Positions 21,623-33,332 of a stretch of DNA of 36,562 nucleotides are shown here, in pieces; positions within the stretch are counted from its first letter, which is position 1, and each line of letters starts with the position of its first letter. Made by a program: the position numbers and the translations under genes. Source of the stretch: Planobispora longispora (lineage in GTDB: Bacteria > Actinomycetota > Actinomycetes > Streptosporangiales > Streptosporangiaceae); NCBI RefSeq assembly GCF_016863135.1, contig NZ_BOOH01000077.1:1-36562 (forward strand), read 5' to 3'. The notes below the pieces were generated by a model. The model was not told where the DNA came from. It ran no database searches and was given only the letters and a program-made list of their open reading frames with translations.

Positions 21623-21633
21623 GAGGAGCGGGG

Positions 21634-22311
21634 ATGGCGTGGGGACGGATCGTCGTGGCGCTCGCGGGAGCGGGGGTGGCGGCTCTGGCGGGCTCGCTGC
21701 TCCTGCTCTCCGGGGAACAGGGGTCCCAGGCGGCCCGCTCCCCGCTCCGGACGCCCTCCCCGGCGGACCCGCTGACCGACGAGGAGATCGACCGGGTGGG
21801 CGAGATCGCCTCGGCGACGCTGCGCGCCCGCATGACGAACGGGCGCGTCGAGCTCCTCTACATCGAGCGCGGCGACGACAAGGCGGCCGGGGAGCGCCGC
21901 CGGGCCGACGCCTACATCTACGACTACGCCGCCAACCGGTTCATCGTGCGGACCGTGGACCTCGCCGAGGGCAGGGTGGTCGCCGAACGGGAGGGCCGGG
22001 GCACGCAGCCGCCGCCGTCGCGGCTGGAGGAGGAACGCGCGGCCGAGCTGCTCCTGGCCGACCGGGTGCACGGCGGGCGGATCCGCGCCGCCTACGCCCG
22101 GACCGCCGGAAGGCCCCTGCGGTCGGCGTCCGACCTGGGCCTGCGCGCCCTGATCTACACGCCGCGCCCGGCGTCGCGGGGGGCCGAGGCGTGCTCGGAC
22201 CACCGGTGCGTGCGGCTGCTGGTGCGCCTGCCGGACGGCACCTGGCCGGACACCACCCGGACCGTCGTCGACCTGTCCGCCAAGAAGATCCTCACCCTGA
22301 CAGGACGGTGA
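21634..22311 (+). CDS. Membrane-anchored protein resembling the N2/N3 domains of a copper amine oxidase
   Basis: The 225-residue protein has one N-terminal hydrophobic segment (VVALAGAGVAALAGSLLLL, residues 7-25) with no evident cleavage site, so it is probably a membrane anchor with the rest outside. The soluble part starts DPLTDEEIDRVGEIASATLR, runs through ADAYIYDYAANRFIVRTVDL and AEGRVVAEREGRGTQPPPS, and ends DLSAKKILTL. This order matches the small N2 and N3 domains that precede the catalytic domain in copper amine oxidases (PLT..EI, R.A.V...D....V.VDL..G.V, ..QP). ATG 21634 follows GAGGAGCGGGG. Its stop overlaps the next gene by 4 bp (GTGA). I propose it pairs with that product. The match is by pattern only. 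Confidence 0.65.
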   Translation: MAWGRIVVALAGAGVAALAGSLLLLSGEQGSQAARSPLRTPSPADPLTDEEIDRVGEIASATLRARMTNGRVELLYIERGDDKAAGERRRADAYIYDYAANRFIVRTVDLAEGRVVAEREGRGTQPPPSRLEEERAAELLLADRVHGGRIRAAYARTAGRPLRSASDLGLRALIYTPRPASRGAEACSDHRCVRLLVRLPDGTWPDTTRTVVDLSAKKILTLTGR

Positions 22312-23552
22312 CCGTGCGGCTCTCCGCGCTCCTGCCCTCACTGCTCTCCTGCGCCCTGATCGTCACCTGCGGCGCCTCCGCTTCCGCCTCCGCCCCCGCC
22401 CGCGCCGGAACCGTCCTGCCCACCGGAACCGTCCGGCCCAGCGGCGCCCTCTCTCCCGGCGGCGCCGTACGGGAGGCCGCGCGGCGGGCGCCCGCGTGCG
22501 GCGCGCCGTACCTCGTCGAGCGGGAACTGCCGAACGGCGCGCGCTGGCGGCTCTGCTGGGAGATGCGCGTCATCGAGGGCCTCACCCTCACCGGCGTCGC
22601 CTACACCCCGCCGCGCGGCCGGCCGATCCCGGTGCTCCGCAGCACCGCCCTGGCCCAGATCCACGTGCCCTACGACAGCGGCGAGCCCCGCTTCCACGAC
22701 ATCGGCGCCCTCGGCGAGAACGCCGTCACGCTGGCCTCCGCCGACTGCCCCGGCGGGGAGCGCCGCGAGCGGTTCGTGTGCGTGACCACCCGTTCGCGCG
22801 GTCACGGCTATCTGAAGTCGCTGCCCGGCGAGCCGAACCTCTCCGCCCTGGGCCACGAGCTGGTCGTCTACGCCGCGTTCCAGATCGGCTGGTACACCTA
22901 CCTGGTCGAATGGGCCTTCTCCGACGACGGCGCGATCACCCCGCGCGTGGGCGCGACCGGCTCGCTGGCCGGCTTCGCCACCGGCCCCGAGTACGGATGG
23001 TCCACCGGGACGGGCGACACGCACGTCGAGCAGAGCCACACCCACAACATCTTCTGGCGGCTCGACTTCGACGTCGACGGCCCGAAGCACGACGTGGTCG
23101 AGCAGTACGACTTCCCCGGCTCCGGCACGGCCAGGCGAACGCTCTCCCGCACCGTCTTCACCGAGGAGGCCAAGGCCGTCAACGCCCCGGCCCGGTGGTG
23201 GCGGGTGGTCGACACCGAGAGCCGCAACGCCGACGGGCACCCGATCTCCTGGGAGATCGGCGACTCCGGCAGCGCGCAGTACCGCGGCCCCGCCGACGAG
23301 GCGTTCACCCGGGCCGACCTCTACGTGACCCAGTACCGCGCGTGCGAGCGCCTGGCCAGCAACAACCCCGCGCCCCGCTGCGCGGGCAGCGTCGACCGCT
23401 ACGTGAGCGGCCAGCGGCTCACCGACCCCGTCGTCTGGGTGAACGTCAGCTACCACCACGTCGCCCGCGACGAGGACGCCGATCCCATGCCCACGCACTG
23501 GCAAGGTTTCCGCATCACCCCGCGCGACGCGATGGCGGAGAACCCCCGCTGA
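22308..23552 (+). CDS. Secreted copper amine oxidase catalytic-domain protein, atypical
   Basis: From GTG 22308 (or GTG 22314) the protein has 414 residues and begins with its own signal peptide (LSALLPSLLSCALIVTCGA), so it is a true gene and not a frameshift product. The catalytic fold of copper amine oxidases shows in EWAFSDDGAITPRVGATG (201-218), SHTHNIFWRLDFDVDG (243-258) and YHHVARDEDADPMP (382-395). Copper ligands would be His244, His246 and His383 or 384, and the base Asp131 (FHDIGALGEN). Where classical enzymes have N-Y-D/E-Y, with the first Tyr turned into topaquinone, this one has W195-Y196-T197-Y198. The Tyr is kept, but the preceding Asn is Trp and the following acid is Thr. Usual enzymes exceed 600 residues because they include N2/N3. 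It may oxidise an amine, or be a non-catalytic relative. Confidence 0.75.
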   Translation: MTVRLSALLPSLLSCALIVTCGASASASAPARAGTVLPTGTVRPSGALSPGGAVREAARRAPACGAPYLVERELPNGARWRLCWEMRVIEGLTLTGVAYTPPRGRPIPVLRSTALAQIHVPYDSGEPRFHDIGALGENAVTLASADCPGGERRERFVCVTTRSRGHGYLKSLPGEPNLSALGHELVVYAAFQIGWYTYLVEWAFSDDGAITPRVGATGSLAGFATGPEYGWSTGTGDTHVEQSHTHNIFWRLDFDVDGPKHDVVEQYDFPGSGTARRTLSRTVFTEEAKAVNAPARWWRVVDTESRNADGHPISWEIGDSGSAQYRGPADEAFTRADLYVTQYRACERLASNNPAPRCAGSVDRYVSGQRLTDPVVWVNVSYHHVARDEDADPMPTHWQGFRITPRDAMAENPR

Positions 23553-27835: not shown

Positions 27836-27885
27836 TCATGTTCACGGCCGTGTACCGCATGACACGGCATTCCCCCGGAGGATTC

Positions 27886-29832
27886 GTGAGACTTCGACGT
27901 CTCCTGGCGGGAGCCATCGCGCTCGCCGCCACCTCGGTCACGCTCGCGGCGACACCCGCAACCGCCGCGACCGACCCCACCCCCAAGATCTCCGCCGACG
28001 TCCTGGACGAGAGCGGCAAGGTCCGCGTTCTCGTCCAGGTCAACTCCAGCGCCAATGTCGCGTCCACCGCGGACAAGGCTGAGGCCGTCAAGAGCTCCGA
28101 GGTCGTGGCCGAGGCCCCGAGCCTGCGATTCTTCGCCGTGGAGACCACGGTCGAGGGCGCCAAGAAGATCGCCCAGGACCCCGCGGTCACCGCGGTCACC
28201 GAGGACCGCAAGCACAGGGTGCGCATGACCGACAGCCTGCCGGTGATCGGCGGCGACAAGGTGCACAAGGCCGGGATCACCGGCGCGGGCCAGGAGATCG
28301 CCGTCCTGGACACCGGCATCGACGCCGCGCACAAGTTCTTCTCCGGCCGCGTCACCGAGGCGTGCTTCTCCGCCGCCAGCGAGGCCGAGAACGCCGAGCC
28401 CCTGTGCGCGAACGGGCAGGAGTCCCAGGAGGGCCCCGGCTCCGGCTACGCCCTGACGCCCAAGTGCATGTCCCCCCAGGGCTTCATGCTCTGCTACCAC
28501 GGCACGCACGTCGCGGGCATCGCGGCGGGCAAGTCGTTCAACGCCCAGTACGGCGACGGCGTGGCCCCCGGCGCGAAGATCCTCTCCATCCAGGTCTTCA
28601 GCCGCTTCAACGGCGAGAAGGAGTGCGGGGAGGGCGAGGCCCCCTGCGTCATGGCCTACGACTCGTCGATCCTCCAGGGCCTCAACTACGTCCTGCAGAA
28701 GAGCTCCTCGCGCAAGTTCGCCGCGGCGAACCTGAGCCTCGGCGGCGGCCGGTTCACCGAGCACTGCGACACCGCCCAGGACGGCGCGCCGTACAAGACG
28801 GTGATCGACGCCCTCGCCGCCAAGGGCGTCGCCACCGTGATCGCGGCCGGCAACGAGGAGTACGACCACGAGGTGAGCCACCCCGGCTGCGTCTCCTCGG
28901 CCGTGACCGTCGGCGCCACCGACAACGCCGACGCCGTCGCCGGATTCTCCAACCGCGGCAAGCTGCTCGACCTCTTCGCCCCCGGCGTCGAGATCGTCTC
29001 GGCCATCCCCAGCCAGAACGGCGAGCGCATGCACCCCCTCGGCGGCACCTCGATGGCCGCCCCGCACGTCGCGGGCGCCTTCGCGCTGCTCAAGGAGAAG
29101 TCGCCGAACGCCTCGGTCGCCGAACTCCTCGCCCGCCTGAAGGAGACCGGCAAGCCGATCGAGTACAGCAGCGACGGCGTCAAGATCAAGACCCCGCGGA
29201 TCAACGTGTTCGACGCGCTGCCCGCGACCTCCACCCCGACGCCCACGCCCACCCCCACGCCGACCCCGACGGTGTCCGCGACCCCGACCGCGACTCCCAC
29301 CGTCACCCCGACGGCGTCGCCGACCACCCCGGCGAGCCCGTCCCCCGTCCCGAGCCCGACCGTCACGGACGGCCCCATCATGAGCGACGGCGGCGGCAGC
29401 GCCGTGCCGCTGCCCGACGTCTGCGAGCGGGGCAAGGGCACCCGGGCCCTGACGTCCACCGGCTGGGCCACCGAGGTCCTGCGCGGCAAGGGCAAGCTGA
29501 GCGACAAGACGCTCATCTGCTACCTGAGCATCGTGCAGAACGGCAGCAAGGTCTTCCCCGAGCTGACCGACGCGGGCTCGCTGGGCAAGGCCTACAAGGT
29601 CCTCAAGCCCAGGACCAAGAGCGCCAAGGCCCTGCTCGACCGTGAGCTGCTGGCCGCCTGGCTGAACTACGCCCACGGCGTCTACAACGGCTCCGCCAAG
29701 ATCAAGGGCGCCACGACGCTCAAGAGCGCCATCGGCGTCGCGGAACGGCACCGGGCCAACCCGAAGGCCACCTCCGCCCAGCTGCTCAAGGCCGCCGTCT
29801 ATCTGAACAAGAACGTCAACCGGGCCAAGTAA
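27886..29832 (+). CDS. Secreted subtilisin-like (S8) serine protease 1 with Pro-Thr linker and C-terminal domain
   Basis: The protein has 648 residues from GTG 27886, chosen because GGAGGA and the first codons (VRLRRLLAGAIALAA) are shared by all three proteases here; the frame also opens earlier at ATG 27838 without a ribosome site. Order: signal peptide (1 to about 28), an inhibitor-I9-like propeptide (about 30-115), peptidase S8 domain with Asp142 (AVLDTGID), His205 (HGTHVAG), oxyanion Asn323 (AAGN) and Ser389 (GTSMAAPHVAG), a Thr/Pro linker (448-492), and a C-terminal domain from about 510. A cysteine-rich insert lies between Asp and His (Cys160, 174, 194, 203). The C-terminal domain has two cysteines (513, 545) and ends NVNRAK. 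The 3' end is identical to that of protease 2. It should act outside the cell on protein substrates. Confidence 0.92.
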   Translation: MRLRRLLAGAIALAATSVTLAATPATAATDPTPKISADVLDESGKVRVLVQVNSSANVASTADKAEAVKSSEVVAEAPSLRFFAVETTVEGAKKIAQDPAVTAVTEDRKHRVRMTDSLPVIGGDKVHKAGITGAGQEIAVLDTGIDAAHKFFSGRVTEACFSAASEAENAEPLCANGQESQEGPGSGYALTPKCMSPQGFMLCYHGTHVAGIAAGKSFNAQYGDGVAPGAKILSIQVFSRFNGEKECGEGEAPCVMAYDSSILQGLNYVLQKSSSRKFAAANLSLGGGRFTEHCDTAQDGAPYKTVIDALAAKGVATVIAAGNEEYDHEVSHPGCVSSAVTVGATDNADAVAGFSNRGKLLDLFAPGVEIVSAIPSQNGERMHPLGGTSMAAPHVAGAFALLKEKSPNASVAELLARLKETGKPIEYSSDGVKIKTPRINVFDALPATSTPTPTPTPTPTPTVSATPTATPTVTPTASPTTPASPSPVPSPTVTDGPIMSDGGGSAVPLPDVCERGKGTRALTSTGWATEVLRGKGKLSDKTLICYLSIVQNGSKVFPELTDAGSLGKAYKVLKPRTKSAKALLDRELLAAWLNYAHGVYNGSAKIKGATTLKSAIGVAERHRANPKATSAQLLKAAVYLNKNVNRAK

Positions 29833-31193: not shown

Positions 31194-31415
31194 GACCTTT
31201 TGAGGACCTCGAAATGAGGCCTCTCGTCACCCACCTGCGAGCACCCTCTCTCCCTGCACCTGGGTGATCAGGCCATCGTGCGGCCGCCCCTGCTCCGGGT
31301 TCGTCGGTCCCCTCCCCTATCTTCTTGACCGCGATACGTCATGATCAGTTGCTCATGGCGTTCCTCGCGCTGCCAAGGCACACGTGCCGCAATGAACCCC
31401 CCTCACGGAGGATCA
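31194..31415 (+). other. Upstream region of protease 2
   Basis: No gene is visible between the possible remnant and the protease start. Unlike the other two proteases, this leader shows no obvious hairpin next to the start. A promoter is expected, but I find no convincing -35/-10 pair. Confidence 0.4.
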
Positions 31416-33332
31416 GTGAGACTCCGACGTCTCCTGGCGGGAGCCATCGCGCTCGCCGCCGCCTCGGCGGCTCTGGCCGCCGTCCCCATATCCGCATCGG
31501 CCGCCCCGGACCCGGCGGCGCCGAGGATCGATCCGGCGGTCGTCTCCGGTGTCGAGGCCGGCAAGAAGGTCCGGGTCATCGTCTCGGTGAAGGACGGCCA
31601 GGCCGTCGCGCCGGTGGCCGAGAGCGCCGAGGCGATCTCGGCCGCGACCCGTGTCCTGCCGGACTCCGGCGGCAAGAGGTTCTTCGTCATGGAGACCAAC
31701 CGGGCCACTCTCGCCTCGCTCCGCGGTGATGAACGCATCTCCTCGATCTGGAAAGACTGGCTCATCGCTCCCGCCGCCCTCGCCTCCAGCACCAAGGTGA
31801 TCGGCGCCGATCGGGCGCACGCGGCCGGGGCCACCGGCAAGGGCCAGAATGTCGTCATCCTGGACACCGGCATCGATCGCGACCACCCGGCCTTCACCGG
31901 GCGCATCATCGCCGAAGCGTGTTTCTCCCACACACTTGAGCGGGAGTCCGTCCGCTCCCTCTGCCCCGACGGCAGCGACCGGCAGGTCGGTCCCGGTTCC
32001 GCGAACGCGGAGACCGCACTGTGCCTGTCCGGAGGGAAGAACCTGTGCACCCACGGCTCGCTGGTCACCGGGATCGCCGCTGGCAAGAAGAACGCGGGCG
32101 GACAGGTCGACGGCGTCGCCCCGGACGCCGGAATCATCGCAATCCAGATCTTCACCCGTTTCGACAGCGAGGAGCACTGCGGGGAGGGCAAGGCCCCTTG
32201 CGTGCTCTCCTGGGGCTCCAGCCAGATCCGCGCCATGGACTACGTGATCGAGCTCGCCAAGAGCCACAAGATCGCGGCGGTCAACTTGAGCGCCACCCTG
32301 TACGGCGCCAGCCGCAGCCCGTACGACGAATACGACGAGAGCGAGTCGTGCGAGGTCGAACCCGTCTCGGAAGAGATCATTGACCTGTTCAAGCTGGGCA
32401 TCCCCGTCGTCACCGCCGCCGGCAACAGCGGCAAGGAGGGCAAGATCGCCGTTCCCGCCTGTGTCCGGTCGGCCGTCGCGGTGGGTGCCACGGACGACTC
32501 CGACGCGGTGGCGTCCTTCTCCAACCGGGGAATCCTCCTCGATCTCTTCGCCCCCGGCGTCGGCATCACCTCCTCCGCCCCCGGCGGCACCCAGGCCACG
32601 GCGAGCGGCACCTCCCTGGCCGCCGCGCACGTGACGGGCGCCTTCGCGCTGCTCAAGGAGCGCGTGCCGGAGGCGAACGGCGCCGAGTTGCTGAAGAGGC
32701 TCCGGGACACCGGTAAGCCGATCTCCTACCGGAACATCGGCAAGACCCTCACCACCCCCCGGATCGACCTCGCGCGGGCTCTCGGACTCCCGGCCGCCAC
32801 CCCGAGCCCCGTCCCGAGTCCCACCGTCACGCCTTCCGCGACGTCCACGGCGACTCCCGCCCCGACGCACACGCAGCCGGGCGACGGCACCGGCCTCGAC
32901 CCGCTCCCGGTCCCGGACGTGTGCAAGCGCGGCAAGGGCGGCAAGGCGCTGACCGCGGCCCGGTGGGACGTCGAGTTCCACGAGAGCGCCGGCAAGCTCT
33001 CCGACAGCACCTTGCGGTGTTACCTCAGCATCGTGCAGAACGGCAGCAAGGTCTTCCCCGAGCTGACCGACGCGGGCTCGCTGGGCAAGGCCTACAAGGT
33101 CCTCAAGCCCAGGACCAAGAGCGCCAAGGCCCTGCTCGACCGTGAGCTGCTGGCCGCCTGGCTGAACTACGCCCACGGCGTCTACAACGGCTCCGCCAAG
33201 ATCAAGGGCGCCACGACGCTCAAGAGCGCCATCGGCGTCGCGGAACGGCACCGGGCCAACCCGAAGGCCACCTCCGCCCAGCTGCTCAAGGCCGCCGTCT
33301 ATCTGAACAAGAACGTCAACCGGGCCAAGTAA
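31416..33332 (+). CDS. Secreted subtilisin-like (S8) serine protease 2
   Basis: The protein has 638 residues from GTG 31416 (preceded by CGGAGGATCA). It has the same layout as protease 1: signal peptide (VRLRRLLAGAIALAAASAAL...), propeptide-like region (about 35-120), catalytic Asp150 (VILDTGIDRDHPAF), His213 (CTHGSLVTG), Asn337 (AAGN) and Ser400 (SGTSLAAAHV), a shorter Pro/Thr/Ser linker (about 460-490) and the C-terminal domain from about 500 with Cys503 and Cys535. The motifs deviate slightly (HGS for HGT, GTSL for GTSM) but no catalytic residue is lost. The last 101 codons are identical in DNA to protease 1, while the catalytic domains differ widely, so the tails have been homogenised. 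Substrates are unknown. An acidic loop DEYDESESCEVE (304-315) is specific to this copy. Confidence 0.92.
   Translation: MRLRRLLAGAIALAAASAALAAVPISASAAPDPAAPRIDPAVVSGVEAGKKVRVIVSVKDGQAVAPVAESAEAISAATRVLPDSGGKRFFVMETNRATLASLRGDERISSIWKDWLIAPAALASSTKVIGADRAHAAGATGKGQNVVILDTGIDRDHPAFTGRIIAEACFSHTLERESVRSLCPDGSDRQVGPGSANAETALCLSGGKNLCTHGSLVTGIAAGKKNAGGQVDGVAPDAGIIAIQIFTRFDSEEHCGEGKAPCVLSWGSSQIRAMDYVIELAKSHKIAAVNLSATLYGASRSPYDEYDESESCEVEPVSEEIIDLFKLGIPVVTAAGNSGKEGKIAVPACVRSAVAVGATDDSDAVASFSNRGILLDLFAPGVGITSSAPGGTQATASGTSLAAAHVTGAFALLKERVPEANGAELLKRLRDTGKPISYRNIGKTLTTPRIDLARALGLPAATPSPVPSPTVTPSATSTATPAPTHTQPGDGTGLDPLPVPDVCKRGKGGKALTAARWDVEFHESAGKLSDSTLRCYLSIVQNGSKVFPELTDAGSLGKAYKVLKPRTKSAKALLDRELLAAWLNYAHGVYNGSAKIKGATTLKSAIGVAERHRANPKATSAQLLKAAVYLNKNVNRAK

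Follow-up and report, generated by a model that had tools for sequence, protein, structure and literature searches.

The window analysed here, a 36,562-nucleotide stretch of Planobispora longispora DNA (contig NZ_BOOH01000077.1), carries two adjacent genes that together hold the domains of a copper amine oxidase (CAO), and the catalytic protein has Trp in place of the classical Asn before the precursor Tyr of the cofactor. The explanation that we favour, at a probability of roughly 0.6, is a secreted, two-gene, Trp-type copper/topaquinone amine oxidase whose D2-D3 domains are supplied by a partner protein. An earlier sequence-only reading had given the coordinates, strand and GTGA overlap of the two genes as we find them (Table 1), and the gaggag at 21623-21628, upstream of gene 1, reads as a ribosome-binding site. 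That reading had also proposed a separate export signal for each protein, and both indeed have an N-terminal hydrophobic stretch. It had called the first protein membrane-anchored; the hydrophobic stretch was borne out, and could be either a cleaved signal peptide or a membrane anchor. A lipoprotein assignment for gene 2, considered from a Cys near its signal, was rejected because this Cys is not retained in relatives.

Table 1. Features of the two-gene locus in window coordinates; boundaries of the two halves of the gene 1 protein were set by eye.
Feature	Position	Strand	Remarks
Gene 1 (P0001, 225 aa)	21634..22311	+	Apparently exported protein with CAO domains D2-D3
Gene 1 hydrophobic N-terminal segment	21646..21711	+	Best 19-residue mean hydropathy 2.36, at residue 6; pLDDT about 50
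D2-like half, about residues 46-141	21769..22056	+	Helix, four strands, helix; profile match
D3-like half, about residues 142-224	22057..22305	+	Contains Cys187 and Cys192
GTGA overlap, gene 1 stop and gene 2 start	22308..22311	+	GTG at 22308, TGA at 22309-22311
Gene 2 (414 aa from the GTG at 22308; P0002 numbered from the next codon)	22308..23552	+	Catalytic CAO domain D4; separate export signal
Gene 2 signal sequence and low-complexity linker	22308..22490	+	pLDDT <50 for residues 1-28 and 30-60; hydropathy 1.94
Tyr121	22671..22673	+	Cofactor-H-bonding Tyr column; 86/86 rows; Tyr in 24/24 one-chain CAOs
Asp130	22698..22700	+	Catalytic-base column; 86/86 rows; 24/24 one-chain CAOs
Motif W194-Y195-T196-Y197	22890..22901	+	Y195 in the precursor-Tyr column; W194 replaces Asn of N-Y-(D/E)
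His243, His245	23037..23045	+	Copper-ligand columns; 86/86 rows; 24/24 one-chain CAOs
His382-His383	23454..23459	+	86/86 rows; His383 is the third copper-ligand column, His in 24/24

The second protein matched the Pfam CAO family PF01179 with E=4.2e-32 (112 bits against a curated cut-off of 27), as expected from the catalytic domain claimed for it, and the E. coli amine oxidase with 1.6e-12 (phmmer). Our comparison set of one-chain enzymes comprised 24 actinobacterial CAOs (23 distinct), all of the Asn type, and the gene 2 profile aligned with them over columns 315-696 (profile-profile, E=3.5e-28). The D4 family profile gave 41 matches among PDB sequences (E from 1.7e-29), every one an amine or lysyl oxidase except for one with an uninformative name. 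The predicted model (pLDDT 82.9, pTM 0.81) superposed moderately on known CAOs (TM 0.66-0.73), which made up 50 of the 50 Foldseek PDB matches listed (E from 8.2e-23). The column of Cys157 is Cys in all 24 one-chain CAOs, that of Cys146 is not, and gene 2 ends directly after the last conserved Asn-Pro. Judged by the profile cut-off and by the presence of three His ligand columns, a base Asp and a cofactor-holding Tyr, the protein belongs to PF01179.

The first protein was identified through its family. Searched alone, it matched no Pfam family, scored E=0.0047 against the CAO model, far under the model's cut-off, and in a single-sequence search of PDB sequences gave seven SAKe repeat proteins and nothing else, none of the matched stretches being significant alone. 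A profile of 34 family members, compared with the N-terminal part of the 24 one-chain CAOs, gave an hhalign probability of 96.7 (E=3.7e-10) over columns 80-266 of the one-chain alignment, in line with the N2/N3 (D2/D3) order that had been proposed. The reversed profile scored 0.5 and five column shuffles 0.1-0.3; against the one-chain catalytic part the probability was 0.5, versus 97.1 against the N part alone. Other profile searches gave fainter matches: the family profile found a CAO among PDB sequences at E=0.68, and in Pfam, with E up to 1 allowed, AGAO-like_N2 was matched by 2 of the 34 members (best 0.00034) and Cu_amine_oxidN2 also by 2 of 34 (best 0.093). More members, 5 of 34, matched PF14449 (best 0.0027), which we took as matches to low-complexity linker. 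A search of both proteins against CAO profiles thus succeeded directly for the second, and for the first as a 34-member family profile and not as a single sequence.

The predicted structure of the gene 1 protein (pLDDT 85.6) consists of a helix, four strands and a helix followed by a further helix and strands. CAOs accounted for 50 of the 50 Foldseek PDB matches listed (E from 8.6e-8), including two 1spu rows titled only oxidoreductase and counted as CAO from a separate sequence search; the superposition was loose (TM 0.48-0.54, rmsd 5.3-7.4 Å). The available passages of PMC3382800 describe D2 and D3 as small domains of alpha/beta type, each about 100 residues long. In the D3-like half, Cys187 and Cys192 could form a disulfide. 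Gene 1 (columns 80-266) and gene 2 (columns 315-696) are collinear with one-chain CAOs and do not overlap, and on this alignment the split point between the genes is the D3-D4 linker.

A short overlap in one window, taken by itself, could be read as one CAO gene interrupted by a frameshift or by a mistake in assembly, and nothing else points that way. This reading has next to no chance of being correct, as gene 2 carries a separate export signal and the two-gene form recurs in relatives. The genome scan confirmed 397 relatives, of which the best 80 were kept (distant relatives could differ), and a separate N-domain frame lay upstream on the same strand at 79 of the 79 evaluable loci among these best 80 of 397 (weakest E=5.8e-42). 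The 80th locus, L073, has an N-run, an assembly gap, upstream and was left out of the pairing count. By a first-start rule the two genes overlap in 28 of the 79 pairs and are at most 140 nt apart in the other 51. Within the window's family, 36 of 297 genomes carry a split-type catalytic gene (E <1e-100) among the matches listed; in 35 of these 36, again among the matches listed, a full N-protein is adjacent and on the same strand by coordinates. Evenly sampled genomes of the phylum yielded the split type (E <1e-160) in 6 of 396 among the matches listed, with an N frame in 6/6. The two-gene form is thus recurrent and conserved in related bacteria, and the view that it is not a sequencing error is upheld.

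The pairing bears on whether the N-protein is an oxidase subunit at all. It could instead have a cell-surface role of its own, for which D3 alone is enough, and merely be co-transcribed with the catalytic gene. Among the matches listed, a protein consisting of the D3 half only occurs in 12 of 297 family genomes, namely G028 (locus L153) and 11 of genus g32 (L154 and L208-L217), and no split-type catalytic gene was found among the matches listed for these 12 genomes, nor a catalytic frame in the 12 retrieved stretches. Read from their sequences, these D3-only proteins have a hydrophobic N-terminus. The D3-only gene lies between mak and glgB in 11/11 genus g32 genomes (11 of the 12 overall), in some more than 1 kb from one neighbour; the stretch retrieved from G028 has neither mak nor glgB. 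Conversely, one genome, G030, has a lone Trp-type catalytic gene (L155 6911-8248, motif G-W-Y-E-Y) close to a contig end; the N-profile matched nothing in the 8.3 kb around it (best E=0.4) or anywhere in that genome (best E=0.31). Because of the 12 D3-only genomes and this lone catalytic gene, the N-protein and the catalytic protein do not appear strictly interdependent, and the persistence of D3 without a split-type catalytic gene suggests that D3 is either useful in itself or a slowly decaying remnant.

Substitution rates were also compared. Crude dN/dS values (NG86, which is biased in GC-rich DNA) had medians of 0.61 for the N-protein gene, 0.52 for the catalytic gene and 0.27 for the neighbouring GlgB gene, so the N-protein would be the faster evolving of the pair; with a crude value of 0.97 between the window and P. 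rosea in addition, gene 1 appears weakly constrained. Pairs of D3-only genes gave pN/pS of 0.21-0.47 in the twelve lowest-pN pairs and a median of 0.61 over 66 pairs, a weak measure here. Third-position bias makes both ratios unreliable, and we set them aside as measures of constraint; neither dN/dS nor pN/pS revealed strong constraint on gene 1. Against an independent N-protein stand the collinearity of both gene products with one-chain CAOs and the adjacent catalytic gene in 35 of the 35 family genomes with a full-length N-protein, among the matches listed. On balance we consider a separate role for the N-protein unlikely and regard it as the D2-D3 partner of a two-gene enzyme.

We next turn to the active site. 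The catalytic alignment had 86 rows, namely the window protein, the 80 loci (best 80 of 397, L073 included) and 5 further loci, near-copies among them. Invariant in all 86 were Trp194, Tyr195, Tyr121, Asp130, His243, His245, His382 and His383, and six of these (Tyr121, Asp130, Tyr195, His243, His245 and His383) fall on columns identical in 24/24 one-chain CAOs. The His ligands and precursor Tyr expected at a single site, which the sequence-only reading numbered His244, His246, His383/384 and Tyr196 (243, 245, 382/383 and 195 here, as P0002 starts one codon later), thus correspond column for column with the one-chain enzymes. When the family profile was searched against PDB sequences, the position where 1qaf and 1qal, the E. 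coli active-site-base mutants, carry Glu or Asn in place of the wild-type residue fell on Asp130. The Tyr121 column is, we assume, that of AGAO Tyr284. A conserved Tyr hydrogen-bonds the cofactor in the Arthrobacter enzyme according to the available parts of PMC9491219.

In the window the motif reads Q-I-G-W-Y-T, the classical Asn being replaced by Trp. Trp precedes the precursor Tyr in 86/86 split rows (best 80 of 397 plus 6), versus Asn in 24/24 one-chain CAOs, and the patterns used to scan for relatives did not contain this motif, so that rows were not selected for Trp. The residue after the Tyr is E in 44, T in 26, D in 11, A in 3, N in 1 and H in 1 of the split rows, compared with E or D in all 24 one-chain CAOs. 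The changed motif W-Y-T-Y therefore combines a family-wide change, the Trp, with a residue that varies within the family: Thr is not part of the signature, since 55 of the 86 rows have E or D at that position. Surveyed in these homologues, Trp before the precursor Tyr is a family marker and the residue following the Tyr is variable. The distance from Tyr121 to Asp130 also differs, being 9 in 86/86 split rows versus 14 in 24/24 Asn-type rows. A HEED block present in 24/24 actinobacterial one-chain rows and in 0/86 split rows was dropped as a family mark, the E. coli enzyme also lacking HEED in the alignment.

Mutational work on the Asn shows what its replacement may cost. According to the available passages of PMC9491219, the Asn that precedes the precursor Tyr is highly conserved, is a near neighbour of the cofactor ring in the Arthrobacter structure and prevents nonproductive flipping of the cofactor; in the Asn->Ala mutant the ring is flipped, topaquinone is still made, 180-fold more slowly, and kcat is down 160-fold. 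For the yeast enzyme, the passages available from PMC3382800 report that Asn->Ala leaves 5-10% topaquinone, and that Glu->Gln on the other side of the Tyr slows cofactor formation about tenfold. No test of Trp at the Asn position was found in the parts of the CAO literature available to us. By analogy with these mutants, altered topaquinone formation in the Trp-type family, as proposed from the sequence, is plausible.

The same data could be taken further, to a catalytic protein that is a non-enzymatic copper binder or sensor in which the cofactor no longer forms because the Asn is gone. The low topaquinone yield of the yeast mutant and the losses in rate and kcat of the Arthrobacter mutant would fit, and the presence of Asn in 24/24 Asn-type CAOs speaks against activity being retained in the Trp type. 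The Arthrobacter Ala mutant, however, still forms topaquinone, and none of the copper ligands, the catalytic Asp, the cofactor-holding Tyr or the precursor Tyr varies in the 86 split rows; the Asp and the two Tyr are also present in 5/5 one-chain Trp-type rows (below). Copper binding alone would not need the Asp and the cofactor-holding Tyr, which makes the non-enzymatic protein suggested earlier quite improbable. Another alternative keeps the enzyme and changes the cofactor: Trp194 and Tyr195 would give rise to a ring-modified or Trp-linked quinone and not to plain topaquinone. An invariant Trp beside an invariant precursor Tyr, in 86/86 split rows and in 5/5 one-chain sister rows including one from Variovorax, and the placing of the Asn column next to the ring of the cofactor in the structure of the Arthrobacter enzyme (PMC9491219, passages available) are what such chemistry would call for. 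Stacking alone would nevertheless explain a conserved aromatic residue, and the available literature passages on the CAO cofactor held no precedent for one altered by Trp, so that we think this very improbable and retain a topaquinone enzyme as the preferred reading.

The Trp variant is also found in single-chain proteins. Gene 2 was the sole match in the window genome (completeness 99.96) both for the PF01179 model and for the Asn-type profile, and no Asn-type CAO was found there. A search with P0002 additionally found a one-chain paralogue (L026; C37, 1450-3006) with the motif G-W-Y-R-Y, scoring 25.6 bits against PF01179, under the 27-bit cut-off, compared with 51.1 bits for a Variovorax relative, which passes. 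The paralogue has no evident export signal, and annotation may miss its gene, which falls just under the Pfam cut-off. The one-chain G-W-Y-R-Y family comprises L026, L010, L025, L027-L029 and the plasmid protein WP_162487223.1 of Variovorax sp. WDL1, a 'hypothetical protein' with 41% identity. At L219 2893-6674 the Variovorax gene adjoins one for a galactose oxidase-like protein, giving two possible copper oxidases as neighbours. The spacing between the cofactor-holding Tyr and the Asp is 9 in 4 of 5 one-chain Trp rows and 10 in Variovorax.

In a phylogenetic tree that carries a long-branch warning, the Trp-type rows (45 split and 6 one-chain) grouped apart from the 24 Asn-type rows with support of 100/100, and the split rows alone had 94/84, under the starred support level. 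This branch, with the invariant Trp, bears out the idea of a new subfamily. The N-part of the one-chain Trp family matched the split N-protein with a probability of 93.6 (E=2.1e-7 over 86 columns; reversed, 0.1), compared with 49.3 before the Variovorax sequence was added. These comparisons suggest, as the simplest history, one Asn/Trp divergence followed later by gene fission; the split form most likely arose once, from a Trp-type one-chain ancestor. The direction of this event is our inference, since no root was inferred for the tree.

The gene pair of the window lies between mak (maltokinase) and glgB in an alpha-glucan cluster that by Pfam reads phosphorylase (minus strand), glgE, treS, mak, gene 1, gene 2, glgB. 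Downstream of the cluster are two subtilase-family (Peptidase_S8) genes, at window positions 27838-29832 and 31341-33332. Of 28 Streptosporangiaceae loci, 24 had GlgB within the retrieved flanks (≤5 kb). A second set of 40 loci, mainly from Streptomyces (L075-L115 minus L084), had GlgX beside the pair in 38 of 40, on the opposite strand and thus divergent in 38/38, and TreY in 33 of 40; both were identified by NCBIfam on L091 (2-3750), and GlgX was found at 0 of the 11 loci L063-L073. This mainly Streptomyces neighbourhood of glgX and treY is not the GlgE cluster of the window. That the pair has different alpha-glucan neighbours in two families could be significant or could reflect an inherited position; we considered a functional tie of the pair to the alpha-glucan genes, and leave it unexplained.

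In the mechanism that we propose for the two-gene enzyme, the three His of D4 would bind copper, copper and O2 would convert Tyr195 to topaquinone, and Asp130 would take a proton from the substrate amine, with aldehyde, ammonia and H2O2 as the predicted products. The D2-D3 module, exported by its own signal, probably binds D4 outside the membrane and there takes up the position of D2-D3 in one-chain CAOs. Docking could hold the enzyme on the cell surface, and the module may also help to shape the entrance of the substrate channel. In the yeast enzyme, positions 155 and 156 fall in D3. They are included among the channel positions of that enzyme in the available passages of PMC3382800, which is why we would guess that gene 1 contributes to the channel mouth. 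Trp194 stands in place of the Asn that limits flipping of the cofactor ring. Stacking of Trp194 on the ring could keep it in position, and, as a bulky aromatic replacing Asn, Trp194 may do the Asn's job while altering the rate of cofactor formation and the choice of substrate.

The pair resembles one-chain CAOs such as Arthrobacter globiformis AGAO, the E. coli amine oxidase and Hansenula HPAO in its D2-D3-D4 order, its D4 fold, its three His ligand columns, catalytic Asp, precursor Tyr and cofactor-holding Tyr. It differs in consisting of two genes with two export signals, in the Trp for Asn before the precursor Tyr and in having five residues fewer between Tyr121 and Asp130; D2 and D3 are present but on a separate gene, not in a single polypeptide. 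With the one-chain Trp-type family, with which it groups apart from Asn-type CAOs in the tree (long-branch warning), it shares the Trp before Tyr, the short Tyr-Asp spacing, a D2-D3-like N-part and the ligand columns, whereas that family is single-chain, without an evident export signal, and has Arg after the Tyr. The plant clade I CuAOs, as described in the available passages of PMC12058724, are likewise CAO relatives without the canonical T/S-X-X-N-Y-D motif. Compared by that description, the motif is lost in the plant proteins, whereas the split family keeps the Tyr, ligands and Asp and has another residue fixed. No paper on a split CAO or on the Trp variant was found in the available portions of the open-licence literature, and the term 'amine oxidase' is absent from the main text of the Planobispora omics papers searched for it.

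More speculatively, and with little chance of proving right in all its parts, the Trp type could be a separate branch of quinoenzymes in which Asn-Tyr has given way to an invariant Trp-Tyr pair, the cofactor is chemically different (Trp-stacked or Trp-modified) and splitting of the oxidase has made D2-D3 a free surface protein, the D3 part of which has outlived the enzyme in one genus. For the family itself, a natural group in which Trp is fixed at the Asn position makes the requirement of that position directly testable, and the gene fission provides a natural test of the purpose of D2-D3.
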